Source of the DNA: a virus
Direction: 5' to 3' (one strand)
Length of the DNA: 22,973 bases
IMG/VR virus record: IMGVR_UViG_3300023117_000088
Location: 1-22,973 of that record
Shown: piece after piece, positions 615 to 17,125 of the stretch
Layout: the number at the start of each line of letters is the position of its first letter
Numbering within the stretch: the first letter of the stretch is position 1
Notes under the pieces: model-generated
Seen by the model: only the letters and a program-made list of their open reading frames with translations
Databases searched by the model: none
What the model was told of the DNA's origin: nothing
Program-made: the position numbers and the translations under genes

Positions 615-1523
615 ATGGCTATTTCAAGAGCGCAACTTCTCAAGGAACTCCTGCCGGGTTTGAATGCCCTGTTCGGCCTTGAGTATCAGAAATATGGTGA
701 AGAACACGCAGAGATTTTTGAAACAGAATCTTCTGACCGTTCTTTTGAAGAAGAAACCAAGCTGTCTGGCTTTGGTGCGGCCCCCGTCAAGAACGAAGGC
801 TCTGCCATTGCTTATGACAATGCACAGGAAGCGTGGACTGCACGGTACAACCACGAGACAATTTCTATGGGCTTTTCAATCACTGAAGAAGCGATTGAAG
901 ACAACCTGTACGATTCACTGTCTTCACGTTATACCAAGGCTCTGGCTCGTGCTATGGCTTACACCAAGCAGGTTAAGGCTGCCGCTATTTTGAACAACGC
1001 GTTCAATAGCAGCTATACCTATGGTGACGGCGTAGAACTCTGTTCTACTGCTCACCCGCTGGTGTCTGGCGGCACTAACTCCAACGAGCCTGCTGTATCT
1101 GCTGACCTGAACGAAACTTCGCTCGAAGCTGCAATCATCCAGATTGCTGGCTGGACTGATGAGCGTGATTTGTTGGTTGCCGCTAAACCGCGTAAGCTGG
1201 TTGTTCCGCCCGATCTTCAGTTCGTTGCTGATCGTCTGCTGGAAACAGAAGGTCGCGTGGCTACTGCTGATAACGACATCAACGCTATCCGCAATATGGG
1301 CGCAATCCCGCAGGGTTACACTGTCAATCATTACCTGACAGACACAGATGCTTGGTTCTTGTTGACTGACGTACCGAACGGTCTGAAGCACTTCGTTCGT
1401 ACTCCGATGTCTACATCAATGGACGCTGACTTTGATACCGGCAATAGCCGTTACAAAGCCCGTGAAAGGTACTCCTTCGGGGTATCTGATCCGTTGGGCA
1501 TCTTCGGAAGCCCGGGCGCTTAA
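615..1523 (+). CDS. Major capsid protein, Mu gpT-like
   Basis: This 302-residue protein forms the shell of the phage head. It matches the Mu gpT-type major head subunit family in its whole layout: an N-terminal LLPGLNALFGLEY segment, then FEEETKLSGFGAAPVKNEG, WTARYNHETISMGFSITEE, a central STAHPLV motif, AGWTDERDLLVAAKPRKLVV, and the C-terminal ARERYSFGVSDPLGIFGSP signature. The length is usual for the family. An AGGAG ribosome site at 601-605 supports the ATG at 615. The preceding virion protein ends 13 bases upstream. A strong terminator follows within 10 bases, which fits a highly expressed message ending here. The family is common in Mu-like myoviruses and in marine phages and does not imply transposition. 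Confidence 0.95.
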   Translation: MAISRAQLLKELLPGLNALFGLEYQKYGEEHAEIFETESSDRSFEEETKLSGFGAAPVKNEGSAIAYDNAQEAWTARYNHETISMGFSITEEAIEDNLYDSLSSRYTKALARAMAYTKQVKAAAILNNAFNSSYTYGDGVELCSTAHPLVSGGTNSNEPAVSADLNETSLEAAIIQIAGWTDERDLLVAAKPRKLVVPPDLQFVADRLLETEGRVATADNDINAIRNMGAIPQGYTVNHYLTDTDAWFLLTDVPNGLKHFVRTPMSTSMDADFDTGNSRYKARERYSFGVSDPLGIFGSPGA

Positions 1524-1529
1524 TGAATT

Positions 1530-1552
1530 AGGGGGGCTTGTCCCCCCTTTTT
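1530..1552 (+). terminator. Intrinsic terminator after the capsid gene
   Basis: Six G residues at 1531-1536 pair perfectly with six C residues at 1542-1547 around a CTTGT loop; A1530-T1548 can add a pair. A T-rich tract, TTTTT then CTTTT, follows. It begins seven bases after the capsid stop codon. This is a textbook rho-independent terminator. Since no clear promoter follows, partial readthrough probably feeds the downstream genes, giving more capsid than downstream message (inference). Confidence 0.93.
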
Positions 1553-1576
1553 CTTTTCTATACACTAAACCAACTT

Positions 1577-1652
1577 AGGGCACCAATTAGTTTCGTAGAC
1601 AGGTATTTGCCCTCCTGACGTTGCACAGACTACGAAACAAAACCTTGTGCAA
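1577..1652 (+). ncRNA. Structured RNA element: tandem pseudoknot downstream of gpT-like capsid gene
   Basis: Three perfect or near-perfect helices interleave. P1 pairs AGGGCA 1577-1582 with TGCCCT 1608-1613. P2 pairs GTTTCGTAG 1590-1598 with CTACGAAAC 1630-1638. P3 pairs TTGCACAG 1621-1628 with TTGTGCAA 1645-1652, the last pair inward being G-U. P1 crosses P2 and P2 crosses P3. The 5' strand of P3 is one base from the 3' strand of P2, as in a classical H-type pseudoknot with stacked helices. The 3' strand of P3 touches the Shine-Dalgarno GAGGT at 1653-1657 of the next gene. I recall a published comparative-genomics RNA motif called Mu-gpT downstream element (Mu-gpT-DE), known mainly from marine metagenomes; the position fits, but I cannot verify the consensus. 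It could be a cis-acting translational control or a small RNA. Confidence 0.6.
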
Positions 1653-1664
1653 GAGGTAATTCCA

Positions 1665-2203: not shown

Positions 2204-2497
2204 ATGCGTCGCTATTTTAAGGCTGGCGGTAAGGTCGACAAGAAAGCTATGTCTTGTAATAAGCCAAGGCGTACTCCCAGCCACCCAAAGAAGTCTCATG
2301 TAGTTAAGGCTTGCGAGGGTGGTAAGGAGAAAGTTATACGTTTTGGCGAGCAAGGTGCCAGCACTGCCGGTAAACCCAAGAAAGGCGAATCTGCGCGGAT
2401 GAAAGCCAAACGGAAGTCGTTTAAGGCTAGGCACGGGCGTAACATCAAGAAAGGCAAGATGAGCGCTGCGTATTGGGCTGACAAGGTGAAGTGGTAA
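2204..2497 (+). CDS. Basic KSHVVKACEGGKEK-type phage protein, unknown function
   Basis: This is a 97-residue, very lysine/arginine-rich protein. It carries the block KSHVVKACEGGKEKVIRFGE followed by SFKARHGRNIKKGKMSAAYW and ends in ADKVKW. I recognise this as a widespread family of phage proteins whose role is unknown. The N-terminus (MRRYFKAGGKVDKKAM) has the Lys-Gly-Gly pattern shared by neighbouring small proteins. AGGAG overlaps the previous stop codon, eight bases ahead of the start. The high charge and position among head genes suggest contact with packaged DNA or the inner capsid, which is inference. It opens a run of five small basic proteins. Confidence 0.82.
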   Translation: MRRYFKAGGKVDKKAMSCNKPRRTPSHPKKSHVVKACEGGKEKVIRFGEQGASTAGKPKKGESARMKAKRKSFKARHGRNIKKGKMSAAYWADKVKW

Positions 2498-2501
2498 CAA
2501 A

Positions 2502-2816
2502 ATGCCAAGCAAGTCAAAGAAACAACATGATTTGATGGTAGCAGTTGCTAACAACCCGAAGTTTGCCAAGAAAGTAGGAATCCCACAGAGCGTGGGCAAA
2601 GACTACGAAAAGGCCGATGAAACTAAAAAATTCAAAAAAGGTGGCGAAATGTCAAATTGCGGTACTAAAAGAATGAAAAAAGGTGGTATGACTGGATACC
2701 ACAAAATGCCTGATGGCTCCATGATGAAAGACTCTGAGCATAAAATGATGGGCGGCGGCAAGGTCCGTGGTGCTGGTAAGGCCATGAAGGGCGTACGTCC
2801 TTGTAAGATGAGGTAA
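2502..2816 (+). CDS. Basic phage protein with RGxGxAxKG C-terminal tag
   Basis: The protein has 104 residues. The N-terminal part (MPSKSKKQHDLMVAVANN, then KFAKKVGIPQSVGKDY) is a recurrent phage family in which helices end in a lysine-rich tail. From residue 50 the protein continues with KKGG repeats, a Met/Lys/Gly-rich segment and the C-terminal VRGAGKAMKGVRPCKMR. An in-frame ATG at 2649 is preceded by AAGGTGG, so a second product of 55 residues could be made, or two formerly separate genes have fused. The last 16 residues are repeated almost exactly at the end of the next gene. Function is unknown. Confidence 0.75.
   Translation: MPSKSKKQHDLMVAVANNPKFAKKVGIPQSVGKDYEKADETKKFKKGGEMSNCGTKRMKKGGMTGYHKMPDGSMMKDSEHKMMGGGKVRGAGKAMKGVRPCKMR
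2763..2810 (+). repeat. Direct repeat, copy 1, encoding the C-terminal tag
   Basis: This 48-base stretch is identical at 47 positions to 3146-3193; the single difference is T2771 versus G3154. Both copies sit at the extreme 3' end of a gene, in the same frame, and encode VRGAGKAMKGVRPCKM. The upstream parts of the two genes are unrelated. The near identity, including synonymous positions, points to recent duplication or gene conversion. Confidence 0.92.
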
Positions 2817-2821
2817 AGACG

Positions 2822-3199
2822 ATGGCAACAGCGGCTGAAAAATTCGATGCGGCTTTCATAAATGCACGTAAGCGTGGGGCTAAAACTTTCACCCACAACG
2901 GAAAAAAATACAGCACTGAAACCGCAATGGAAGAGGCTAGAAAGCAACTAAAGCAAGGTGACTTCAATGAGAGACCGCGTTCAGGAAATCTTCCCGGCTA
3001 TGCAAAGTTTGTAATGGATGCACAGGATGGGTCAAAGGGCTATACGCTTTCTAGGGGTGCAAATGCTAGAGCAAATGCGTACAAACAGCTTCGTGATGAA
3101 GGTAAAATTGATTCTTCAGGTCAAGCCTTAAAAAAAGGCGGTAGCGTCCGTGGGGCTGGTAAGGCCATGAAGGGCGTACGTCCTTGTAAGATGCGATGA
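2822..3199 (+). CDS. Basic phage protein with RGxGxAxKG C-terminal tag
   Basis: The protein has 125 residues. The N-terminal half includes FTHNGKKYSTETAMEEARK, the middle has GNLPGYAKFVMDAQDG, and the tail is KKGGSVRGAGKAMKGVRPCKMR (final 16 residues shared with the preceding gene). The N-terminal FxHNGKKYxTE pattern recurs in marine phage proteins of unknown role. The ribosome site GAGG lies in the end of the previous gene (2809-2814 region). The stop TGA overlaps the ATG of the next gene as ATGA, so translation is probably coupled. Role in or near the head is inferred from the neighbourhood. Confidence 0.75.
   Translation: MATAAEKFDAAFINARKRGAKTFTHNGKKYSTETAMEEARKQLKQGDFNERPRSGNLPGYAKFVMDAQDGSKGYTLSRGANARANAYKQLRDEGKIDSSGQALKKGGSVRGAGKAMKGVRPCKMR
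3146..3193 (+). repeat. Direct repeat, copy 2, encoding the C-terminal tag
   Basis: This is the second copy of the 48-base repeat at 2763-2810, 383 bases downstream, differing at one base. Recombination between the copies would delete the 125-residue gene but leave the tag in frame on the upstream gene. Confidence 0.92.
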
Positions 3200-3360
3200 G
3201 AAGCTATTACAAAAAAGGCTGTGGCTGTGGCATGAAGGAAGGCGGTACGGTAAAGGATGCGTGTTATCGCAAGGTAAAATCTCAGTATAAGGTTTTCCCG
3301 TCTGCCTATGCCTCCGGGGCTATAGCCAAATGCAGGAAGAAGGCTAGTGGCGGTTCGTAA
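3196..3360 (+). CDS. 54-residue Cys-containing viral protein, unknown function
   Basis: This short gene starts at the ATGA overlap with the previous stop and ends at TAA 3358-3360. The product begins MRSYYKKGCGCGMKEGG and then has VKDACYRKVKSQYKVFPS followed by AYASGAIAKCRKK. The core CxxKVKxxYKVFPSAYASGAxxKCRK is a recognisable viral motif that I remember from small proteins of phages and of large eukaryotic viruses; its role is unknown. Four cysteines (9, 11, 23, 46) could bind metal. The coupling to the upstream gene and the conserved motif make this a real gene in spite of its size. Confidence 0.82.
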   Translation: MRSYYKKGCGCGMKEGGTVKDACYRKVKSQYKVFPSAYASGAIAKCRKKASGGS

Positions 3361-3622
3361 GACTAAAAAGGGCGCAGCCCTTAAAAGGTGGTTTAAAGAG
3401 GACTGGAAGGACGTTCGTACAGGAAAGGCGTGCGGACGCCAAGAGGGCGAAAAACGCGGTACGCCGTACTGTAGGCCCACTAAGAGGGTGTCTAGTAAGA
3501 CCCCTAAAACCGCCTCTGAAATGACTTCAACGGAGAAGAAGTCGAGGATTAGCCAAAAGAAACGGCTAGGCCAGCCCGCAGGTGCGCCCCGTAGGGTGTC
3601 CCCGCTAAAGAGGAAAAAGTAA
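3347..3622 (+). CDS. Basic RWFKEDW/CGR-type viral protein, unknown function
   Basis: The protein has 91 residues, starting at GTG 3347 inside the end of the previous gene (14-base overlap). It begins MAVRKTKKGAALKRWFKEDW, then has DVRTGKACGRQEGEKRGTPY and CRPTKRVSSKTPKT, and ends in a Lys/Arg tail. The RWF-x-E-x-W, CGR and YxxCxP elements form a recurrent viral family, often beside the SAYASG protein that also precedes it here. It is strongly positively charged, which would suit DNA contact inside the head (inference). The start is the earliest that keeps the KKG lead; no ATG lies near. Confidence 0.78.
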   Translation: MAVRKTKKGAALKRWFKEDWKDVRTGKACGRQEGEKRGTPYCRPTKRVSSKTPKTASEMTSTEKKSRISQKKRLGQPAGAPRRVSPLKRKK

Positions 3623-4312
3623 ATGGCTACATCAGGCACTACGACATTTAACCCAGACTTCACCGAGATTGCGGAAGAAGCGTGGGAACGTGCCGGTAGG
3701 GAAATGCGTTCAGGCTATGACCTGCGCACCGCCCGTAGGTCTATGAATTTGCTCACAATTGAGTGGCAAAATCGCGGCATAAACATGTGGACTATAGACG
3801 AGGGCAGCGTAGCCCTGACTTCAGGCACAGCCACTTATAACCTACCAGCCGATACCATTGATTTAATGGAGCAAGTTATACGGACGGGTGCTGGTAGTGT
3901 AAGTACGCAGTCAGACCTAAACATATCGCGTATTAGTGTTTCTACGTACTCGTCTATACCGAACAAGATTTCGCAGGGCAGACCGATACAGGTTTATGTT
4001 GATAGGGGCAGAGACAATCCCTCAATAACCGTATGGCCTGTGCCGGATAGCAACGACTATACGCTTGTGTATTGGCGTATGCGTAGGATTCAGGACGCTG
4101 GGGCTGGTGCAGAAACAGCCGATATGAACTTCAGGTTCTTGCCGTGTTTGATGGCTGGTTTGGCCTACTATATTGCCATGAAAGAGCCAGATTTGATGCC
4201 CCGAGTACCGATGTTGCAGGCCGAGTACGAGAAACAGTTTGATCTGGCGGCTGGCGAAGACAGGGAGAAAGCCTCTGTTAAGTTCGTCCCGCGTATGTTT
4301 AGGGCTGTCTAA
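3623..4312 (+). CDS. Neck / head-tail adaptor-like protein 1
   Basis: The protein has 229 residues. The N-terminal half is helical (FTEIAEEAWERAGREM, then LRTARRSMNLLTIEWQNRG). A beta region follows with TATYNLPADTIDLMEQVI and TVWPVPDSNDYTLVYWRMRR, and the C-terminus is again helical. This helical-beta-helical layout with Y-x-L-P-x-D and PVPDSxxYTLxYW motifs is shared with the protein at 4847-5476. I associate it with the tail accessory or adaptor proteins that bridge portal and tail in short-tailed phages (P22 gp4 or T7 gp11 type); that assignment is by pattern and context only. The ATG follows the previous stop directly (TAAATG). Confidence 0.72.
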   Translation: MATSGTTTFNPDFTEIAEEAWERAGREMRSGYDLRTARRSMNLLTIEWQNRGINMWTIDEGSVALTSGTATYNLPADTIDLMEQVIRTGAGSVSTQSDLNISRISVSTYSSIPNKISQGRPIQVYVDRGRDNPSITVWPVPDSNDYTLVYWRMRRIQDAGAGAETADMNFRFLPCLMAGLAYYIAMKEPDLMPRVPMLQAEYEKQFDLAAGEDREKASVKFVPRMFRAV

Positions 4313-4846: not shown

Positions 4847-5476
4847 GTGAACTACACCGAATTAAAGACAAATATCCAAGACATCTGTGAAAACACGTTT
4901 ACGGATGCCCAGCTTGCTATGTTCACAGAACAGGCAGAGCAGAAAATATATAACAGCGTACAGATACCTGAACTGCGCCGGAATCAGACTGGTAACGTAA
5001 CTTCGGGGAATAAGTACCTGATATACCCGACGGATATGCTGTATGTGTTCTCTTTGGCTCTAACAGACGGTGATGGCAACTTCCAGTATTTGCTCGATAA
5101 GGATGTCAACTTTATTCGTGAAGCCTATCCAAACCCCAGTACCACGGGGGTTCCCAAGCATTATGGGTTCTTTGACGATACTGCGTTTATTTTAGGGCCG
5201 ACACCGGACAGCAATTACGTAGTAGAGCTTCATTATGGCTATTACCCTGAATCCATTGTTACTGCCGGTACGACGTGGCTTGGGGATGAGTTTGACTCCG
5301 CCCTACTAAATGGTGCGCTTATTGAGGCTATTAGGTTCCTTAAAGGTGAGCCTGATATGGTTGCTTTGTATGAGAAAATGTACGCGCAATCCATTGTTCT
5401 ACTTAAAAATCTTGGCGATGGTAAGATGCGTCAAGATGCGTATCGATCTGGTCAAGTTAGGAAAGAGGTAGCTTAA
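4847..5476 (+). CDS. Neck / head-tail adaptor-like protein 2
   Basis: The protein has 209 residues, starting at GTG 4847 behind AAGAGGTAATT. The N-terminal helices (YTELKTNIQDICENTFTDAQ) are followed by YLIYPTDMLYVFSLAL, then a beta region with AFILGPTPDSNYVVELHYGY, then helices (FDSALLNGALIEAIRFLKGE) and a conserved QDAYRSGQVR end. I know this family from pelagic phages as a structural or adaptor protein. The YxxPxD and PTPDSxY motifs parallel those of the protein at 3623-4312, suggesting two rings of similar fold in the neck. The stop overlaps the next ATG (TAATG). Confidence 0.75.
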   Translation: MNYTELKTNIQDICENTFTDAQLAMFTEQAEQKIYNSVQIPELRRNQTGNVTSGNKYLIYPTDMLYVFSLALTDGDGNFQYLLDKDVNFIREAYPNPSTTGVPKHYGFFDDTAFILGPTPDSNYVVELHYGYYPESIVTAGTTWLGDEFDSALLNGALIEAIRFLKGEPDMVALYEKMYAQSIVLLKNLGDGKMRQDAYRSGQVRKEVA

Positions 5477-6947: not shown

Positions 6948-8018
6948 ATGGCTACTTACACTAACAACTTACGCCTAAAAGAAATCACCACGGGTGACGA
7001 AGACGGTACTTGGGGCACTAGCACTAACAACAACCTCGATCTTATTGCCGAGTCTCTAGGATATTCTACCCAAGATTGTTTCAGCAGTGACGGAGATGCC
7101 ACTACAACAGTAGCAGACGGCAATACTGACCCTGCCCGCGCGTTGTATTTTAAAGTTACCTCTAGCGCAACCCTTACAGCTACTCGAACACTCACAATAG
7201 CCCCTAATACAATATCTAGGGTTATGTTCATCGAGAACGCTACTACTGGCTCTCAAAGCATAGCAATCAGTCAAGGTAGCGGTGGCACAGTAACTGTGGC
7301 AAATGGTAGTTCAAAACTTGTTTATTTAGACGGTGTTGGTGCAACTGCGGCTGTAATAGATATAAGCACGAGGCTTTCGTTAGCGTCAACTTCAGGGTCT
7401 TTTGCAAATCTTACCGTTACTAGCACAGGTAATTTTAGTGGTGCAACAATCTCTAATTTGGGGACAGTTACTACCGCAGATATAAACGGCGGTACAGTTG
7501 ATGGTGTGACTATCGGCGGGGCTTCTGCCGGTGCGGGGACTTTCACTAGCCTAAACGCCACCAATGGTGGTTCTCTTACAGGCACTTGGAGTAATCTGGG
7601 TACTGTTACTACTGTGGACATTAACGGCGGCACTATAGATGGCGTGACCATTGGTGGGGCTTCTGCCGGTGCGGGAACCTTTACTACGCTTGCAGACCAA
7701 GACGGCAGTGTACGGACAATACCGTCTGTGGGTACTAAAACATCTAGTTATACATTGGCTACCAGTGATGTAGGCCAGTATGTGCAAGTAGGTACAGGCG
7801 GCTCAATTACGATACCTGACGCTACTTTCAGTGAAGGCGATGTTGTCAATATTTTTAACAACACAACAGGTGACATAACTATTACTTGTTCTATTACCAC
7901 TGCGTATAAAACAGGAACAGACGCAGACGTTGCAAGCGTCGCACTAGTCACGCGCGGTTTGTGTAGCATTTTCTTTATATCAAGCACAGTTTGCGTCATT
8001 GCAGGAGCCGTTCGCTAA
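6948..8018 (+). CDS. Tail fibre protein with duplicated N-terminal domain
   Basis: The protein has 356 residues. The N-terminal domain (residues 1-138; MATYTNNLRLKEITTGDE, then GTWGTSTNNNLDLIAESLGY) is the phage fibre type that probably docks to the tail. A Thr/Gly-rich beta-helical shaft follows with two copies of a unit ending DGVTIGGASAGAGTFT (around residues 175-200 and 220-245). The C-terminal domain (about 255-356) is a compact beta domain. The N-terminal domain is about three quarters identical, without gaps, to the protein at 9450-9950. GAGGTAAAA precedes the ATG. The stop overlaps the glycine-rich adhesin gene (TAATG). Confidence 0.83.
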   Translation: MATYTNNLRLKEITTGDEDGTWGTSTNNNLDLIAESLGYSTQDCFSSDGDATTTVADGNTDPARALYFKVTSSATLTATRTLTIAPNTISRVMFIENATTGSQSIAISQGSGGTVTVANGSSKLVYLDGVGATAAVIDISTRLSLASTSGSFANLTVTSTGNFSGATISNLGTVTTADINGGTVDGVTIGGASAGAGTFTSLNATNGGSLTGTWSNLGTVTTVDINGGTIDGVTIGGASAGAGTFTTLADQDGSVRTIPSVGTKTSSYTLATSDVGQYVQVGTGGSITIPDATFSEGDVVNIFNNTTGDITITCSITTAYKTGTDADVASVALVTRGLCSIFFISSTVCVIAGAVR

Positions 8019-8851: not shown

Positions 8852-9427
8852 ATGAGCTTTTACAGCATACCGACAATGCAAAGGCCGATGGAAGACTGGG
8901 CCTACTGGGAAGATGCATTAAGCGCCAAGCAGATAGCCATGGTCAAGAAAATGGCATTTAGAGGGAAGGGCACTGGCTTTGTAGCCCAAGATACAGAAGA
9001 CGAGAGTATCCGAAGCACAAAGCTGCATTGGATGGAATTGACTGAAGATACAACCCCGATATATAGCGCCATTGGGCATGTTGCGGCGAGCCTTAACGCC
9101 CAATTCTTTGGGTTAGACCTCACAGGATTTAGTGAGAGAATCCAGCTTTGCAACTACAAGGCAAAGGAGAAGGGGCACTACGACTGGCATAACGACATTG
9201 GCAATGGGGCAGTGAGGAAACTATCTCTTGCCATGCAACTAACAGACCCCTCCAAATACGAGGGGGGAGATTTAATCCTGTCCCCATCTGGGCACGATAT
9301 TGTAGTCCCGAAGAAGGCGGGGTACATTGCGGTATTCCCATCGTGGACTCCACATAAGGTAACTCCGGTTACTAAGGGTAGTAGACAGTCATTGGTTGCT
9401 TGGTTTACCGGGCCAGCGCTTAGATAA
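8852..9427 (+). CDS. 2-oxoglutarate/Fe(II)-dependent oxygenase
   Basis: The protein has 191 residues with a double-stranded beta-helix dioxygenase signature: H113-x-D115 in KGHYDWHNDIG, the distal H168 in FPSWTPHKVTPV and R178 for 2-oxoglutarate in SRQSLVAWFTGP. YEGGDLILSP is the conserved core strand. Enzymes of this prolyl-hydroxylase-like family oxidise a substrate with O2 and 2-oxoglutarate, giving succinate and CO2. The substrate is unknown. It lies between adhesin and fibre genes, so modification of a virion protein is a reasonable guess; host or small-molecule targets are alternatives. It begins three bases after the adhesin stop. All iron and co-substrate ligands appear present, so it should be active. 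Confidence 0.9.
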   Translation: MSFYSIPTMQRPMEDWAYWEDALSAKQIAMVKKMAFRGKGTGFVAQDTEDESIRSTKLHWMELTEDTTPIYSAIGHVAASLNAQFFGLDLTGFSERIQLCNYKAKEKGHYDWHNDIGNGAVRKLSLAMQLTDPSKYEGGDLILSPSGHDIVVPKKAGYIAVFPSWTPHKVTPVTKGSRQSLVAWFTGPALR

Positions 9428-9449: not shown

Positions 9450-9950
9450 ATGGCTACTTACGATAATGATTTACGCTTAACAGAGCTAACTACAGGCGAT
9501 GAGATCGGTAGCTGGGGCGATGTTTCGAACCTTAACCTAGAGCTTATCGCCGAGTCTCTTAGCTACGCCACACAGGATGGGTTTGCTTCTGATGCAGACG
9601 CCACTACAACTGTTGCTGATGGTGCTTCTGATCCGACCCGTGCCATATATCTCAAGGTAACTTCCAGCGCAACACTAACCGCTACGCGCACCCTGACTAT
9701 CGCCCCCAACACAATTAGCCGCCTGATGTGGATAGAGAACGCCACTACAGGGGGTCAGTCCATTACAATAGCCCAAGGCTCCGGTGGTACAGTAACAATA
9801 GAAACCGGACAGAATAAAACAATTTACCTTGATGGTGCTGGGGCCGGGGCCGCAGTTATTGATGCAATGGCAAGTTCAAACATACAAGCGCAACTAAATA
9901 CAAAAGCAACGGTCGATGATGCCTTGGCGTTGTCTATAGCTTTAGGGTAA
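9450..9950 (+). CDS. Short tail-fibre protein, paralogue of 6948 N-terminus
   Basis: The protein has 166 residues. Residues 1-138 align without gaps to the N-terminal domain of the fibre at 6948-8018, with about 103 identical positions by hand count, including the stretch around TATRTLTIAPNTISR. Instead of the repeat shaft and tip domain there is a 28-residue helical end (SSNIQAQLNTKATVDDALAL). It could be a fibre base onto which another protein docks, or a cassette that lost its distal part. The ATG at 9450 follows a 22-base gap with a GGTGCG site. Confidence 0.82.
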   Translation: MATYDNDLRLTELTTGDEIGSWGDVSNLNLELIAESLSYATQDGFASDADATTTVADGASDPTRAIYLKVTSSATLTATRTLTIAPNTISRLMWIENATTGGQSITIAQGSGGTVTIETGQNKTIYLDGAGAGAAVIDAMASSNIQAQLNTKATVDDALALSIALG

Positions 9951-10678: not shown

Positions 10679-11611
10679 ATGGCCTATATAGGAAATCAGC
10701 CTGTCCCACAGGCTACGCAGACCAGAGACAGCTTTACCGCTACTGCAAGCCAAACTACGTTTACTACGTCTGGTGGGTATTCTATTGGGTACATAGACGT
10801 ATTCATGAACGGCGTGAAGCTGGCTAATGCGGACTTCGCTGCTTCTGACGGCAATACCGTGGTTCTTGCTTCGGGTGCGGCGGCTGGTGACATAATTGAT
10901 ATTATTGCTTACGACACATTTGTAGTAGCGCAGAATACTTATACTCGCTCGACTTTCACAGCTACAGCGGCCCAGACTACTTTCTCTGTTAATTATACCG
11001 TTAACTTCATCGATGTCTTCATGAACGGTGTTAAGTTAATTGTCGGCACTGACGTTACAGCAACCAGCGGCTCAGAGATTGTATTGGCTTCGGGTGCGGC
11101 GGCTGGCGATATAATAGAGACAATAGCGTACGGGACATTCTCGGTAGCAGGTACCCTAGCGCCTTCCGACATCGGTGTAACCGTACAAGCCTACGATGCT
11201 GACACCACAAAGAATGACGTAGCAAACACGTTCACCGCAGACCAGACAATCAGTGCGGAACTCATAGCAGATAGCTATAACGAGTCTTATAACGCAGTTA
11301 CATCCACATCTAATGCGACCACTGTTGACTGCGAGACAGGTAACGTCTTTAGCCACACCCTGACTGAAAACACCACCTTCACCTTTAGCAATCCCCCGGT
11401 ATCTGGGACAGCCTATGCTTTCTCTTTGCGGGTTGTGCAGGACGCTAGTGCGTCAGGATACACGGTCACATGGCCCGGTGCGGTTGATTGGCCTTCTGCT
11501 ACAGCCCCTACGCTTACCGCCACCGCAGACGCGGTTGATTGGTTTGTTTTTTCTACCGTTGACGGTGGAACAACTTGGTATGGATTTACTTCGGGACAGG
11601 CGCTCGCATAA
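10679..11611 (+). CDS. Tail fibre protein with two N-terminal repeats
   Basis: The protein has 310 residues. It starts MAYIGNQPVPQATQTRDSF. Two beta repeats cover residues 19-81 and 93-154, each with FTATAxQTTF, IDVFMNGVKL and VLASGAAAGDII. A linker (AYDADTTKNDVANTFTADQT) follows, then a C-terminal domain at 206-310 with FSHTLTENTTFTFSNP and DGGTTWYGFT. The C-terminal domain aligns without gaps to that of the 132-residue protein at 14422. The FMNGVKL repeat is typical of marine phage fibres and may form the tail-docking stalk. The stop overlaps the next large adhesin gene (TAATG). Confidence 0.8.
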   Translation: MAYIGNQPVPQATQTRDSFTATASQTTFTTSGGYSIGYIDVFMNGVKLANADFAASDGNTVVLASGAAAGDIIDIIAYDTFVVAQNTYTRSTFTATAAQTTFSVNYTVNFIDVFMNGVKLIVGTDVTATSGSEIVLASGAAAGDIIETIAYGTFSVAGTLAPSDIGVTVQAYDADTTKNDVANTFTADQTISAELIADSYNESYNAVTSTSNATTVDCETGNVFSHTLTENTTFTFSNPPVSGTAYAFSLRVVQDASASGYTVTWPGAVDWPSATAPTLTATADAVDWFVFSTVDGGTTWYGFTSGQALA

Positions 11612-14426
11612 TGAGTAACTATACTAAGTTAATGCAACAAGCCGCCGCTGGTATTGGTGGCGGTTTCTACCCGTACACGGTAGATTATTCTGCGCGGTTT
11701 AATGACGATGATTCTGCTTATCTTAGTAGAACGCCATCTGCGGGAAACTCCAAAACATTTACGATTTCTTATTGGATGAAGGTTGCCAGTCCCACTCCAG
11801 TTGATTTTATGCTTGCCGCACGGAACAGTTCTGGTGGGGCTTTTTTCTCTATTAAGTACCAAACAAACGGTGCGTTACAATTAAACGACTCACAAAACTC
11901 AGATGCGCTAAATTTAATAAGCAATGCACTCCACAGAGATGTATCTTCTTGGTATCACATTGTTGTTGCTATGGATACAACACAAGCAACATCGTCTGAT
12001 AGGTGTAAGATATATGTAAATGGGGTGCAAATAACAAGTTTCTCAACATCCTCATACCCCGCACAAAACGCTAACATGATTTGGAATACTGCTGTTGGGC
12101 ACTACATAAATTGCACTGTGGATGGTAGTGGTAATCCAACTTCGCTTTGGGATGGATATTACTCACAAGTGTCCCATGTAGACGGTCAAGCACTAGACCC
12201 TACATCGTTCGGTAAATTTAAAAACGGTGTCTGGGTTCCTAAAAGACCATCTGTAACTTACGGCACCAACGGCTTCTACTTAGACTTCGCAGACTCATCC
12301 AATCTGGGTAACGATGTCAGTGGCAACAACAATGACTTCACATCTTCAGGGCTGACAAGTTCTGACCAGATGATTGATACGTCTACGAATAACTTCTGTA
12401 CCTTAAATCCACTAGACGGAGTGGCAACTGCTGAAGGAAACCTACAACAGCCAGCACGTTCTTCTTCTTGGGCAACTTGTCAGTCAACTATGGCCTTCCC
12501 AAAAACAGGCAAGTGGTATTGGGAAGCAGGTGTATTTGGGAGTGGCACATCTGACGTTGGCTCTATAGGTATATCTGCTGACCCAGCAAGTTCTTATGTC
12601 GGAAGTACCACTAACGGTTATGGTTATGTTGGGGCAAATGGGAATATTTATGTGTCGGGGGCGGCTACTGCATACGGAGCGACCTATGGTGCGAACGATA
12701 TAATAGGAATACTTTTTGATGCGGATAATGGAGACTTAACCTTCTATAAAAATGGTACAAGTCAGGGTGTGGCTGAATCAGGTTTAGATACTAGCATTGA
12801 TTACAGACCCGCTGTTTCACAATATAACGCCTATGTAACCAACGTAAACTTTGGACAAAACGGAACATTCAACGGTGCTGTAACAGCCGGAGGCAACTCA
12901 GACGCTAACGGCATAGGTGACTTTAAATACACAGTACCAACAGACGCACTAGCACTCTGCACAGCCAACCTCGCAGAACCTACCATCGGGCCTAACATAG
13001 ACGAAAACTCTTCAGGCACAACGTCTGATGAGAACTTCGCTCCTGTACTCTACACAGGCAACGGCACAGCTATCGGTAGCGGTGGCAAGACCATCTCTGA
13101 CTTGGTGTTCCAGCCTGACTTTGTATGGATTAAGAACAGGGACGCGGCTGACAACCACATGATGTTTGATGCTGTGCGTGCTGCCACTAAGTATCTGTCG
13201 TCCGACACGACTACTGCGGAAACAACAGACACGGAATCACTGACATCCTTTGCTTCTACCGGATTTACGCTTGGTAATAACGTAGCAGTAAATACCAACG
13301 CTGAAGACTATGTAGCTTGGAACTGGAAAGGCAACGGCTCTGGTGTATCTAATACAGACGGAACCATAACATCTACTGTCTCTGCTAATCAGGATGCTGG
13401 GTTTAGTATTGTTACTTATACCGGGAATGGCACGGCGGACAGCACAATCGGTCATGGATTAAACGCCAAGCCAAAGCTGATACTCGTCAAAAACATAAGT
13501 TCAGCAACTGATTGGATGGTATACAGCGAAGATTGCACAAAAGATTACTACTTAGTATTAAATACCACTGATGCACAAGTATCAGCTTCTAATTTCTGGG
13601 GCGGAACAGGCCCAACAACATCTACATTTCAGGTTGGGGCACCTCCCCCTGCTGGGTATATGACGAAAGGTTCGACTTCATATATGTCTATTGGCGGTTC
13701 TGGCACACAAGCAAGCCCTTATTCCGGTAATTCAACGAACCATGCACATAGCACACAAGGGGTTGCTAACTTTGCTGTCGCAGGGGGAGCGGGCGTTCTT
13801 TACTGGAAAGTAACTGTTAGTTCGGAGGCGAGTTACGACTTTGCTAGACTTTATGTTGATGGATCGCTGAAAGTTAATATCTCAGGAAGTACGTCCAGAA
13901 CTTCCTCACAAGCTGTCAATAGCGGGTCTAGTGTACAGTTTCGATATTACAAAGACGGTTCTGTGTCGTCTGGCGCGGATACGGGATATTTGAACTATTT
14001 ATATTTAGTTCCAAGCAGTTCAGGGAAAGGAGCGAATGACAATGGCGATAACTATGTGGCCTACTGTTTTGCAGAAGTTGAATCTTTCAGTTCCTTCGGG
14101 AAATTCACCGGGAACGGCTCGGCTGACGGCCCCTTTGTCTACACAGGTTTCAGACCTGCTTTTATTATGGTTAAGAGAACTGATGCTTCAAGTGACTGGG
14201 TTCTTTGGGATGAAAAACGTGACCCTTATAACTATATGGGCAGGGAACTACAACCAGATAAAAGTGACGCTGAATTATCTTTAAGCGAAGACCTTGACTT
14301 TTTATCTAACGGCTTCAAGCTAAGAGGGTCTGGTACAAATTTTAACGGATCAGGCGGCACATACATTTACATGGCATTCGCAGAAAATCCTTTCAAATAC
14401 GCAAACGCAAGGTAAACGACAATGAG
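11294..14426 (+). repeat. Duplicated receptor-binding module, copy A
   Basis: This unit includes the C-terminal domain of the 10679 gene, the TAATG junction, the whole large adhesin gene and the start of the following gene. It corresponds to copy B at 14503-17125. Proteins align along most of the length. A 42-base segment is identical (12340-12381 and 15501-15542), and the last 25 bases are identical (14402-14426 and 17101-17125), including the spacer TAAACGACA and ATGAG of the following gene. Copy A is about 510 bases longer, mostly because of one inserted domain. Confidence 0.85.
11611..14415 (+). CDS. Large tail-fibre adhesin with LamG-like, SPRY-like and DUF7483-like domains
   Basis: The protein has 934 residues from ATG 11611 (TAATG overlap); the longer in-frame start at 11575 lies inside the previous gene. 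The N-terminus MSNYTKLMQQAAAGIGGG is followed by YPYTVDYSARF and a LamG-like lectin domain (about 25-190; WYHIVVAMDTT, IYVNGVQ, WDGYYSQVSHVDG). A SPRY-like domain lies about 285-425 (GKWYWEAGVF, LTFYKNGTSQGVA). A region resembling DUF7483 of phage fibres runs from about 475 to the end (GHGLNAKPKLILVKN, GDNYVAYCFAEVESFSSFG, ending AFAENPFKYANAR). About 125 extra residues at 677-805 are absent from the paralogue at 14820. It probably binds surface glycans of the host. Confidence 0.83.
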   Translation: MSNYTKLMQQAAAGIGGGFYPYTVDYSARFNDDDSAYLSRTPSAGNSKTFTISYWMKVASPTPVDFMLAARNSSGGAFFSIKYQTNGALQLNDSQNSDALNLISNALHRDVSSWYHIVVAMDTTQATSSDRCKIYVNGVQITSFSTSSYPAQNANMIWNTAVGHYINCTVDGSGNPTSLWDGYYSQVSHVDGQALDPTSFGKFKNGVWVPKRPSVTYGTNGFYLDFADSSNLGNDVSGNNNDFTSSGLTSSDQMIDTSTNNFCTLNPLDGVATAEGNLQQPARSSSWATCQSTMAFPKTGKWYWEAGVFGSGTSDVGSIGISADPASSYVGSTTNGYGYVGANGNIYVSGAATAYGATYGANDIIGILFDADNGDLTFYKNGTSQGVAESGLDTSIDYRPAVSQYNAYVTNVNFGQNGTFNGAVTAGGNSDANGIGDFKYTVPTDALALCTANLAEPTIGPNIDENSSGTTSDENFAPVLYTGNGTAIGSGGKTISDLVFQPDFVWIKNRDAADNHMMFDAVRAATKYLSSDTTTAETTDTESLTSFASTGFTLGNNVAVNTNAEDYVAWNWKGNGSGVSNTDGTITSTVSANQDAGFSIVTYTGNGTADSTIGHGLNAKPKLILVKNISSATDWMVYSEDCTKDYYLVLNTTDAQVSASNFWGGTGPTTSTFQVGAPPPAGYMTKGSTSYMSIGGSGTQASPYSGNSTNHAHSTQGVANFAVAGGAGVLYWKVTVSSEASYDFARLYVDGSLKVNISGSTSRTSSQAVNSGSSVQFRYYKDGSVSSGADTGYLNYLYLVPSSSGKGANDNGDNYVAYCFAEVESFSSFGKFTGNGSADGPFVYTGFRPAFIMVKRTDASSDWVLWDEKRDPYNYMGRELQPDKSDAELSLSEDLDFLSNGFKLRGSGTNFNGSGGTYIYMAFAENPFKYANAR

Positions 14427-14820
14427 TTTAGCAAGAGACTTGGCAGACAGCCTATTTACAAAAGTAACAACCTTTGACTCTGGCGTTATTGAGGAATTTA
14501 CGGCGGTTACTTCTACCAGCAACGCGACCACTTGCGATATGCAGGACGGTACGAACTTCTCTCACACACTGACAGAGAACACCACGTTTACCTTTAGCAA
14601 CCCGGCTTCAAGCGGTAAGGTGACTAGCTTTACTCTCAAGATCATACAGGACGCTAGTGCCTCCGGGTACACTGTGACATGGCCTGCTTCGGTAGATTGG
14701 CCTTCTGCTACTGCACCTACACTGACAGCCACAGCGTCAGCCGTAGACTACTTTGTGTTTTTAACTAGCGATGGCGGTACTACTTGGTACGGCTTCACTG
14801 CTGGACAGGCGATGGCGTAA
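14422..14820 (+). CDS. Short fibre protein, partial paralogue of 10679
   Basis: The protein has 132 residues. A 27-residue N-terminus (MSLARDLADSLFTKVTTFDS) is joined to a 105-residue domain that aligns without gaps to residues 206-310 of the 10679 fibre, with identical blocks such as FSHTLTENTTFTFSNP and SASGYTVTWP. It lacks the FMNGVKL repeats. The gene is the first of copy B of the duplicated module and overlaps the second adhesin gene by TAATG. The common C-terminal domain probably serves as the base or cap that holds the adhesin translated next. Confidence 0.82.
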   Translation: MSLARDLADSLFTKVTTFDSGVIEEFTAVTSTSNATTCDMQDGTNFSHTLTENTTFTFSNPASSGKVTSFTLKIIQDASASGYTVTWPASVDWPSATAPTLTATASAVDYFVFLTSDGGTTWYGFTAGQAMA

Positions 14821-17125
14821 TGACTAGTTCTAAGAATTTAATACAAGCCGCCGCTGGTGTTGGCGGTGGTGACTTCTATCCATATACGGTGGATTACTCT
14901 GCGCGGTTTAACCAAGCAGACGATCCTTACCTTTATCGGACTTTAAGCACTACATATTCTACATACACATTTTCTGCATGGGTAAAATTAACAGCACTGT
15001 TTGTAGACTACGCATATTTATTTTCTAGTTGTGCCGGAAGCACTCAAAAGGGTGGAGTTGCATTAAACCCATCAGGCAATTTTTATATGTTTAAATACTC
15101 TGGTTCTACTTCAACATCAATAGAATCGGCTATAAGGCGTGACCCTTCAGCTTGGTATCATGTAGTAATGAAAGTTTCGTCTGGGACTGCTTCGCTACAC
15201 ATTAATGGAGTACAGGTGTTGAGTGGATTTTCTGCTAACTCCCTTCAAACAGGAACAAACCAAACTATTGTAGGTGCTTTTAACGATGGATCGTTAGCCT
15301 ATCACTGGGACGGGTATATGAGTGAAGTTGCTCTTATTACTGGCACAGCCTACGACCCGACAGATTTTGCAGAAGATAAAAATGGCGTTTGGGTTCCAAA
15401 AGATATTTCTGGTCTGACCTTTGGCACAGACGGCTTTTACTTAGACTTCTCCAACTCTGCCGCACTCGGCACAGACGTATCAGGCAACGGTAACAATTTA
15501 ACATCTTCAGGGCTGACAAGTTCTGACCAGATGATTGATACGCCTACGTCAAATCATGCAACGTGGAACCCTTTAAAGTTTAGAAGCACATCTCTAAAGG
15601 CTGTCTTAGCAGAAGGTAATCTAAAAGCTACTTTTGACGATACAGGTTCTATTGAATATGCCTATGGCACTATGGCTGTTACAAGCGGTAAGTGGTATTG
15701 GGAGCATACTTGTAATGCAGTAGGCGGTGAGCAGTATATTGGTGTTGTCGGTGCTAACGTAGGAGAAGGAAACCCATCTGACTCAAGACACTACAGAAAC
15801 AACGGAAATAAATACTTGGACGGTGGTTCTGCTACAGCTTACGGAGCAACGTGGACAACTGGCGATATTATGGGTTGTGAGTTGGACATGGACAACGGGA
15901 CGATTGAGTTTTTCAAGAATGGCTCTAGTCAGGGCGTTGCTTACACAGACCTCCTTACTGCTATGCCGGATGGTGGGTGGGCTATCATGGCAGGTGGCTA
16001 TAACAACTCAGCCTGTACTATTCATACTAGCTCAGACAAGTGGACTTACACGCCAAGCACAAACTTTGTAGCTATGTCCACAGCTAACTTACCAGAACCC
16101 ACAATCGGGCCGAATAGTGCTGCAACGTCTGATGAGAACTTTAATACTGTTTTGTATACAGGTAATGGTACTAGCCAAAATGTAACAGGCTTTGGCTTTG
16201 ACCCTGATATGGTTTGGCATAAAGCAAGGTCTGTAGCATATAGCCACAGTATTGTTGATGTAATCCGTGGTGACAGCAATGTTATATTTACAAATACAAC
16301 TGATGCAGAACAGAACCCCGGTGCGCAACTTGATTTAATTGCAGACGGAGCAACTGTAACTTACAGGTCTGCTAATCTTTCTAATAACCAGTCTGGATCA
16401 ACCTACGTCATTTGGGGTTGGAAAGCCAACGGCTCTGGTGTATCCAACACAGACGGAACTACAACTTCTACTGTATCAGCTAATACTGATGCTGGGTTTA
16501 GTATTGGTACTTACACTGCGCCAATATCATCTGCGTTTACTGTAGGTCATGGATTAACGGCTACTCCTGATATGGTTATTATTAAAGCCTATTCAGACGC
16601 ATACATCTGGTCTGTCATGCACATTGGAGCAGGTAATTTAACCAGTCGTTTACAGCTTTCAACTACAGCAGCAGCCCAAACAGGTATATTTACTGCACCT
16701 ACGTCAAGTGTGATTAACCTTCCAGCATCTTATGGTGATGGTGCAGATTATTTATTCTATGCGTTTCACTCCGTTGAAGGCTTCAGCAAGTTCGGCTCCT
16801 ACACTGGGAACGGTTCAACAGATGGCCCCTTCATTTTCACAGGTATGCGTCCTGCTTGGTTGATTACTAAGAGAATTGACTCAACAAGTAGCTGGTATGT
16901 ATGGGATGCGGTGAGAGATGCTTATAATCCAATAGGCACCTATCTTGTGGCAAACGTAGCGCAAACAGAGCAGTCACTTTCGACAGGGTACTTTGATTTT
17001 CTTTCTAACGGCTTTAAATTAAGAGATACATCAACGGAAATAAACGCATCAGGTGGCACATACATTTACATAGCATTCGCAGAAAACCCATTCAAATATT
17101 CAAACGCAAGGTAAACGACAATGAG
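14503..17125 (+). repeat. Duplicated receptor-binding module, copy B
   Basis: This is the second copy of the module at 11294-14426. It keeps the order of fibre C-terminal domain, TAATG junction and LamG/SPRY/DUF7483-like adhesin, and the identical 25-base end with the ATG of the following gene. Copies have diverged most in the LamG-like part and in the middle of the DUF7483-like part, as expected for receptor-contact surfaces. Confidence 0.85.
14820..17114 (+). CDS. Large tail-fibre adhesin, paralogue of 11611
   Basis: The protein has 764 residues from ATG 14820 (TAATG overlap; the in-frame start at 14784 is inside the previous gene). The N-terminus MTSSKNLIQAAAGVGGGDF continues as YPYTVDYSARF. 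A LamG-like domain covers about 25-185 (WYHVVMKVSSG, LHINGVQV, WDGYMSEVAL), a SPRY-like domain about 275-405 (SGKWYWEHTC, IEFFKNGSSQGVA), and a DUF7483-like region about 440-764 (GHGLTATPDMVIIK, FHSVEGFSKFGSYTGNGS, AFAENPFKYSNAR). It lacks the inserted domain of its paralogue. Two adhesins with shared ends and different centres suggest alternative or joint receptor recognition. Confidence 0.83.
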   Translation: MTSSKNLIQAAAGVGGGDFYPYTVDYSARFNQADDPYLYRTLSTTYSTYTFSAWVKLTALFVDYAYLFSSCAGSTQKGGVALNPSGNFYMFKYSGSTSTSIESAIRRDPSAWYHVVMKVSSGTASLHINGVQVLSGFSANSLQTGTNQTIVGAFNDGSLAYHWDGYMSEVALITGTAYDPTDFAEDKNGVWVPKDISGLTFGTDGFYLDFSNSAALGTDVSGNGNNLTSSGLTSSDQMIDTPTSNHATWNPLKFRSTSLKAVLAEGNLKATFDDTGSIEYAYGTMAVTSGKWYWEHTCNAVGGEQYIGVVGANVGEGNPSDSRHYRNNGNKYLDGGSATAYGATWTTGDIMGCELDMDNGTIEFFKNGSSQGVAYTDLLTAMPDGGWAIMAGGYNNSACTIHTSSDKWTYTPSTNFVAMSTANLPEPTIGPNSAATSDENFNTVLYTGNGTSQNVTGFGFDPDMVWHKARSVAYSHSIVDVIRGDSNVIFTNTTDAEQNPGAQLDLIADGATVTYRSANLSNNQSGSTYVIWGWKANGSGVSNTDGTTTSTVSANTDAGFSIGTYTAPISSAFTVGHGLTATPDMVIIKAYSDAYIWSVMHIGAGNLTSRLQLSTTAAAQTGIFTAPTSSVINLPASYGDGADYLFYAFHSVEGFSKFGSYTGNGSTDGPFIFTGMRPAWLITKRIDSTSSWYVWDAVRDAYNPIGTYLVANVAQTEQSLSTGYFDFLSNGFKLRDTSTEINASGGTYIYIAFAENPFKYSNAR

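Follow-up and report, generated by a model that had tools for sequence, protein, structure and literature searches.

Sequence comparison identifies the RNA encoded at positions 1577-1652 of the window (the whole virus record IMGVR_UViG_3300023117_000088, 22,973 nt, analysed at its full length) as a real, conserved and covarying pseudoknot. Its topology is that of two interlocked pseudoknots, one formed by P1 with P1b and one by P2 with P3. P1b is nested in P2, P1 crosses P2, and the P1b loop contains the 3' strand of P1. We propose that this RNA is probably a structured 5' leader, namely the entire 5' UTR of a transcription unit which begins behind the capsid terminator and codes for a decoration or cement-type virion protein, and that it gates translation. 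The features of the locus are:

615-1523 (+): major capsid gene, matching PF25209 (Phage_capsid_4, E 2e-14) and PF10124 (Mu-like gpT, E 1.8e-7), also phrog_371, major head protein
1530-1548 (+): intrinsic terminator, AGGGGGGCTTGTCCCCCCT followed by a T-rich tail, in the gap between capsid gene and RNA; rank 1 in the terminator scan
1561-1566 (+): candidate -10 box TACACT, 10 nt 5' of P1; weak if taken alone
1577-1652 (+): tandem pseudoknot RNA, between the capsid terminator and the 80-residue gene
1577-1582 (+): P1, 5' strand, AGGGCA; from direct reading and the own-versus-permuted pairing test
1590-1598 (+): P2, 5' strand, GTTTCGTAG; from direct reading and covariation in relatives
1599 (+): joint between P2 and P1b, a single A; invariant in 62 of 62 non-redundant leaders, which had been selected for a one-base joint with any letter
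1600-1603 (+): P1b, 5' strand, CAGG; a fourth helix, overlooked in the sequence-only reading
1608-1613 (+): P1, 3' strand, TGCCCT, inside the P1b loop; from direct reading and the own-versus-permuted pairing test
1614-1617 (+): P1b, 3' strand, CCTG, followed by a conserved AC at 1618-1619
1621-1628 (+): P3, 5' strand, TTGCACAG; from direct reading, all cells paired in type A
1630-1638 (+): P2, 3' strand, CTACGAAAC; from covariation in relatives
1639-1644 (+): A-rich connecting loop AAAACC between P2 and P3; similar loops in relatives
1645-1652 (+): P3, 3' strand, TTGTGCAA, ending at the Shine-Dalgarno sequence
1653-1656 (+): Shine-Dalgarno sequence GAGG, with zero gap after P3
1665-1907 (+): gene for the 80-residue protein, N-terminus ASTTFSGPV.STNGF; the RNA is its leader

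The sequence-only reading had described helices P1, P2 and P3, and all three are present base for base. P1 comprises 6 of 6 and P2 9 of 9 Watson-Crick pairs, and P3 consists of 7 Watson-Crick pairs and one G-U pair. The one-base junction that had been noted between P2 and P3 is A1629, and P3 indeed ends exactly at the GAGG. The window RNA has the features of the tandem-pseudoknot family, i.e. P1, P2, P1b and P3 in this order, the A joint, and the AC after P1b.

Conservation and covariation of the fold

With an architecture descriptor the site scored 26.5, and the next best sites of the window reached 18 on the plus strand and 19 on the minus strand. In 893 kb of related loci, descriptor scores of at least 22 were found for 64 sites on the coding strand versus 4 on the opposite strand. 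These results bear out the earlier judgement that chance formation of the helices is unlikely. A finder for the core (P2-joint-P1b) produced 318 matches, 228 of them distinct, in 405 loci, and 2 matches in 1.14 Mb of shuffled sequence. The nested folding energy of the window RNA gave no signal (z = -0.64), which is explained by the pseudoknot, and hence the case rests on comparison. This ordinary energy is what speaks for chance pairing within one sequence, an explanation that is nevertheless ruled out, with practically no probability left to it, by the descriptor scans, the core finder, the covariation and the pairing test on permuted strands described below.

Related loci came from two sources. 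Searching viral contigs for homologues of the 80-residue protein and the capsid protein gave 159 loci, and two DNA-pattern scans added further ones; locus counts are lower bounds. The sample is non-random, as loci were fetched by these protein queries or by core sequence patterns, and the IMG/VR contigs are genome fragments. For the 80-residue protein, relatives were found in at least 473 candidate stretches of viral contigs. Leaders of type A, the kind found in the window, and of the diverged types D and E have a common architecture built from different helix sequences. The architecture also occurs in the sequenced phages HTVC023P (a Pelagibacter phage) and DSL-LC04, and both complete phage genomes carrying it contain one clear copy of the RNA. 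Five contigs from metagenome-assembled bacterial genomes match the type E pattern; these are unsafe for host assignment. BLAST searches for similar DNA in sequenced phages returned only the query phage itself or chance matches, which indicates that the kinship of the RNA across phages is structural.

Compensatory changes, the check proposed for the three helices in the sequence-only reading, were found in related phages. In 28 leaders of types D and E, P2 is 100% paired with changes on both sides at 9 of 9 pairs, and the covariation score of the whole structure is 0.608 versus 0.203 for shuffled sequences. Among 22 type A leaders, 97.8% of the cells are paired, compared with 92.6% when shuffled and 35-48% when slid; P2 covaries at 5 of its 9 pairs, and for P3 100% of the cells in this alignment are paired. 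P1b starts with CAG, CTG, CCG or CGG in the relatives, each with a matching partner.

On the raw MAFFT alignment P1 was 60.7% paired, with its 5' strand mis-registered, and for this reason P1 was tested alignment-free. This test was based on 62 non-redundant leaders selected without reference to P1 or P3. The only selection criteria were P2, the one-base joint, P1b with AC/GC directly after it, a start codon and the N-terminal motif encoded by the gene that follows. In 2000 permutations over the 62 leaders, both helices passed: own-pairing of P1 amounted to 4.90 versus a permuted mean of 3.64 (maximum 3.99), and that of P3 to 6.53 versus a permuted mean of 4.81 (maximum 5.46).

A covariance model for use across subtypes was built from the D and E leaders with a structure comprising P2 and P1b only. 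It reports type A leaders at their exact place. The window RNA is among them with 14.4 bits, at an E-value of 0.7 for a search of 375 kb and of 3e-4 for a local stretch of 181 bases, and other type A members score up to 24.7 bits. From 78 matches at E<=5, one was located away from a leader.

Downstream gene and start of the transcript

In 150 of the 228 distinct leaders the capsid gene is located upstream and an FSGPV-type gene downstream. Another 24 distinct leaders have the capsid gene upstream and a different downstream gene, e.g. with GFATHLGPWLLGT or AATHYSGPLQYSG N-termini; the genes under the leaders thus belong to more than one family. A GIY-YIG/NUMOD3 homing endonuclease gene lies between capsid gene and leader in L107 (4008-4931), L150 (1549-2403) and L151 (4044-4964), and other ORFs take this place in L126, L131, L137, L148, L155 and L159. 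These insertions separate the RNA from the capsid gene and leave it attached to the gene that follows, which makes it an element of the downstream gene. The initial description of the RNA by its place downstream of the capsid gene was therefore misleading, as it goes with the next gene, usually behind a terminator and its own -10 box. An assignment as an element of the capsid 3'-UTR was rejected on the same grounds, i.e. insertions part the RNA from the capsid gene and leader and next gene stay together.

Searches with the 80-residue protein returned no Pfam or PHROG family, and no solved structures were found for this protein or the capsid protein. Its AlphaFold model has a mean pLDDT of 68.5, i.e. 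low confidence. The gene occupying the same slot in DSL-LC04 is annotated as 'cement protein' and its product begins with MATTTFSGPV. By position and N-terminal motif, the 80-residue protein is a probable head decoration or cement-type protein. Two further kinds of leader were observed upstream of the small gene. L017, L023 and L025 possess a third, unrelated leader before the same protein family, with hairpins that end in CCTCGGACACGAGAGGAG and CCTC facing the Shine-Dalgarno sequence. L018, L027, L034, L035 and L037 have very short leaders (CATAGACTGC..GCAGACTAT), which seemingly consist of the P2-A-P1b-A core alone.

Many of the related leaders are preceded by a terminator, as in the window. 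The best -10 hexamer is located 5-10 nt 5' of P1 in 94 of 126 non-redundant leaders. Strong -10 hexamers (score >=5.5) were found for 36% of these 126 leaders versus 3.8% of shuffles, and some leaders also have a TTGAC-like -35 sequence; all these promoter calls are consensus matches. Leaders of the Mu-gpT-DE type show a -10 box 7-10 nt upstream in 24 of 28 cases, and this common spacing suggests that both RNAs probably begin at the transcript start. Hence, a promoter immediately upstream of the leader is a well-supported prediction, and the window transcript probably starts at about the first bases of P1. In the copies L409, L411 and L413 from metagenome-assembled genomes, no clear promoter was seen between the hairpin and P1.

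At the other end, 129 of 181 leaders have 11-12 nt between the end of P3 and the start codon. Among 175 leaders with a recognised Shine-Dalgarno sequence, this sequence follows P3 without a gap in 108 and overlaps it in 46, so that it lies at or in the P3 end in 154. In L107 the Shine-Dalgarno sequence includes the 3' strand of P3, TGAGG. As the leader appears to span the distance from the transcript start to the ribosome site, the head (cement-type) gene probably has its own mRNA, whose 5' UTR consists entirely of this RNA.

A conserved anti-Shine-Dalgarno switch was also considered. In the window, pairing of GAGG with CCTCC at 1611-1615 is conceivable. However, many type A leaders have CCACC there and type E leaders lack the motif, and this candidate was discarded. 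Reduced forms, apparently made up of P2 and P3 (CCTAG/CTAGG), occur in L414 (2885-3050, HTVC027P) and L164 (4218-4528, 023Pt_psg01), and in these the 3' strand of P3 falls within the Shine-Dalgarno sequence. The published text on the HTVC027P transcriptome contains no promoter or UTR data (PMC12753301).

Relation to Mu-gpT-DE

The sequence-only reading had linked the RNA to the Rfam motif Mu-gpT-DE. The part of this link that concerns position stood: the window RNA is located downstream of a Mu gpT-like capsid gene (PF10124 match), as is Mu-gpT-DE, and the Mu-gpT-DE model RF03012 matches 19 sister loci in the same slot before the next gene. The search against Rfam, which had been suggested as a check, did not extend the link to the RNA itself. 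None of the 4227 families of Rfam 15 matched the window at gathering score, and RF03012 matched it neither at its gathering score (49 bits) nor at E<=10. In 31 loci with the tandem-pseudoknot architecture Rfam gave no match either, RF03012 included. Permissive thresholds gave chance matches to Rfam only, among them one for the type E leader L143 (E 6.4). Conversely, the covariance model R1 of the tandem-pseudoknot RNA gave 0.2 bits on Mu-gpT-DE, on the wrong strand, so neither model detects the RNA of the other. Strict membership of the window RNA in Mu-gpT-DE is thus refuted by the missing RF03012 matches.

Both RNAs share a core; for Mu-gpT-DE, this comparison draws on the Rfam model and on the loci collected here. 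The Rfam consensus of Mu-gpT-DE consists of an outer CCUG, an A, a hairpin opened by CAG and closed by CUG, AC and, further on, CAGG, which corresponds to P2-A-P1b-AC of the window RNA, and the core common to window positions 1590-1638 and the Rfam alignment of L024 consists of an outer helix, an A and an inner hairpin CAG..CTG-AC. Further likenesses are the location, with a gpT-type capsid gene on one side and the following virion gene on the other, and the -10 box just upstream. In contrast, the Mu-gpT-DE model comprises 53 positions. Its outer helix is 4 bp long, with a 3' strand (CAGG) that continues into the Shine-Dalgarno sequence, an extended inner hairpin stands in place of P1, and the Rfam structure contains neither P1 nor P3. 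The window RNA possesses a 9-bp outer helix, an inner loop that pairs upstream (P1), and the additional P3.

A tree of 79 capsid proteins shows 8 switches of leader type, also between closely related capsids, and well-supported branches force at least 5 of these switches; for example, L113 with a tandem pseudoknot adjoins L105 and L156 with leaders of the Mu-gpT-DE type. The Mu-gpT-DE labels on this tree were set by descriptor, and 16 of 20 loci tested reach the Rfam gathering score. Such repeated exchange indicates that the two RNAs behave as interchangeable parts. Together with the common slot and the core CTG-A-CAG..CTG-AC..A-CAG, this exchange could be taken to mean that the window RNA simply is Mu-gpT-DE, but with no RF03012 match in the window or the 31 loci, with R1 missing Mu-gpT-DE, and with Mu-gpT-DE devoid of P1 and P3, identity is improbable. 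We infer that the common core descends from one ancestor, the alternative being convergence. Somewhat short of an even chance, we consider a broader idea in which Mu-gpT-DE and the tandem pseudoknot form one superfamily of interchangeable 5'-terminal leaders that set the dose of the head decoration protein in a large group of aquatic phages. If this is true, it would be a widespread class of phage RNA regulators that has hitherto been filed as 'downstream element' or sRNA. The analysis also recasts Mu-gpT-DE, an RNA without known function, as a probable leader of the next gene. The tandem pseudoknot is absent from Rfam; it may have been described outside Rfam and the open-access papers searched.

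Proposed function and alternatives

According to our proposal, a transcription unit separate from the capsid message would start after the capsid terminator, and its RNA would fold from about +1 to the Shine-Dalgarno sequence as two interlocked pseudoknots. P1 would form between the 5'-terminal strand of the mRNA and the loop of P1b. P3 would link the stretch 3' of P1b, across P2, with the bases that directly precede the Shine-Dalgarno sequence. Folding and unfolding of P3 would set ribosome access to this site, and the leader would meter synthesis of the head protein relative to the capsid protein, with a phage protein or an assembly state perhaps acting as the signal. As P3 ends at or inside the Shine-Dalgarno sequence, its folding would govern ribosome access, and on balance we favour gating of translation initiation via P3. 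A ribosome block is not forced by this arrangement, because most members have the Shine-Dalgarno sequence next to P3, not within it. Diversity among the downstream genes weakens simple autoregulation and makes a single cognate protein less likely, unless it is another phage protein.

The main rival explanation is a 5'-end stabiliser that provides a longer-lived message for an abundant late virion protein, with ribosome control being incidental. Here the paired first bases and the lack of a single-stranded 5' UTR would exclude RNA pyrophosphatase, RNase E and RNase J. This explanation accounts for P1 beginning at the predicted transcript start, for a compact UTR that is wholly folded from P1 to the Shine-Dalgarno sequence, and for the -10 spacing of 7-10 nt in 24 of 28 Mu-gpT-DE-type leaders, and it requires no common downstream family. 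Taken alone, it leaves the exact fit between P3 and the Shine-Dalgarno sequence and the invariant core bases unexplained, and copies with no obvious promoter (L409, L411, L413) would not lie at a 5' end. We therefore regard it as possible but less likely. The fit of P3 to the Shine-Dalgarno sequence favours control of ribosome loading, that of P1 to the transcript start favours 5'-end protection, and translational gating and 5'-end protection may act together.

Invariant core bases, a complex fold and a location at the extreme 5' end of the transcript would also suit a riboswitch that binds a ligand, or an RNA that acts in cis in antitermination, as the put sites of phage HK022 do. Since no metabolic gene was seen downstream and no conserved alternative terminator within the leader, and as the two complete phage genomes carry one clear copy each, such a role is very improbable. 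Still lower is the probability of a free-standing small RNA, for which the Rfam type of Mu-gpT-DE ('Gene; sRNA') and the likely own promoter can be cited, because P3 runs directly into the Shine-Dalgarno sequence with fixed spacing to the start codon and the strong terminator of the window stands before the RNA, not after it.

The closest viral case found in the literature is the operator of T4 gene 32, where gp32 binds a simple H-type pseudoknot located 67 nt 5' of the start codon (PMC3014915). Gene 32 and the window have in common a pseudoknot in a phage mRNA upstream of the ribosome site. They differ in that the former has one pseudoknot bound by its own gene product, whereas the window RNA has two interlocked ones reaching the Shine-Dalgarno sequence. 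The gene 32 pseudoknot may be the sole viral example in translational autoregulation (PMC3014915), and thus a second, widespread candidate would matter. A pseudoknot is also part of the translational operator of the autoregulated rpsO (S15) gene of E. coli (PMC3014915), which, unlike the gene under the phage leader, is a host ribosomal-protein gene. The manA (RF01745) and wcaG (RF01761) RNAs are structured 5' UTRs known from marine metagenomes and cyanophages (PMC2864571), which shows that structured 5' UTRs do occur in aquatic phages. These differ from the window RNA in that they are associated with metabolic or light-induced genes and have other structures, and no Rfam match was found in the window. 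To these cases our analysis adds a structured RNA with four helices, two interlocked pseudoknots and strong covariation in widespread aquatic phages, among whose carriers is HTVC023P, the type phage of an abundant group of Pelagibacter phages.

Several repeated gene arrangements were observed elsewhere in the window. Lysine-rich small ORFs span 2204 to 3622, and two small basic proteins (2502-2816 and 2822-3199) have an identical end segment, VRGAGKAMKGVRPCKMR. Two SU10-type adaptor proteins (3623-4312 and 4847-5476) are encoded in this single genome. The genes at 6948-8018 and 9450-9950, which flank a 2OG-Fe(II) oxygenase gene (8852-9427), encode proteins whose N-termini belong to one family (phrog_31104). 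Two large paralogous virion or tail-fibre proteins, both phrog_19943, are encoded at 11575-14415 and 14784-17114, and each is preceded by a shorter protein with a similar C-terminal sequence.
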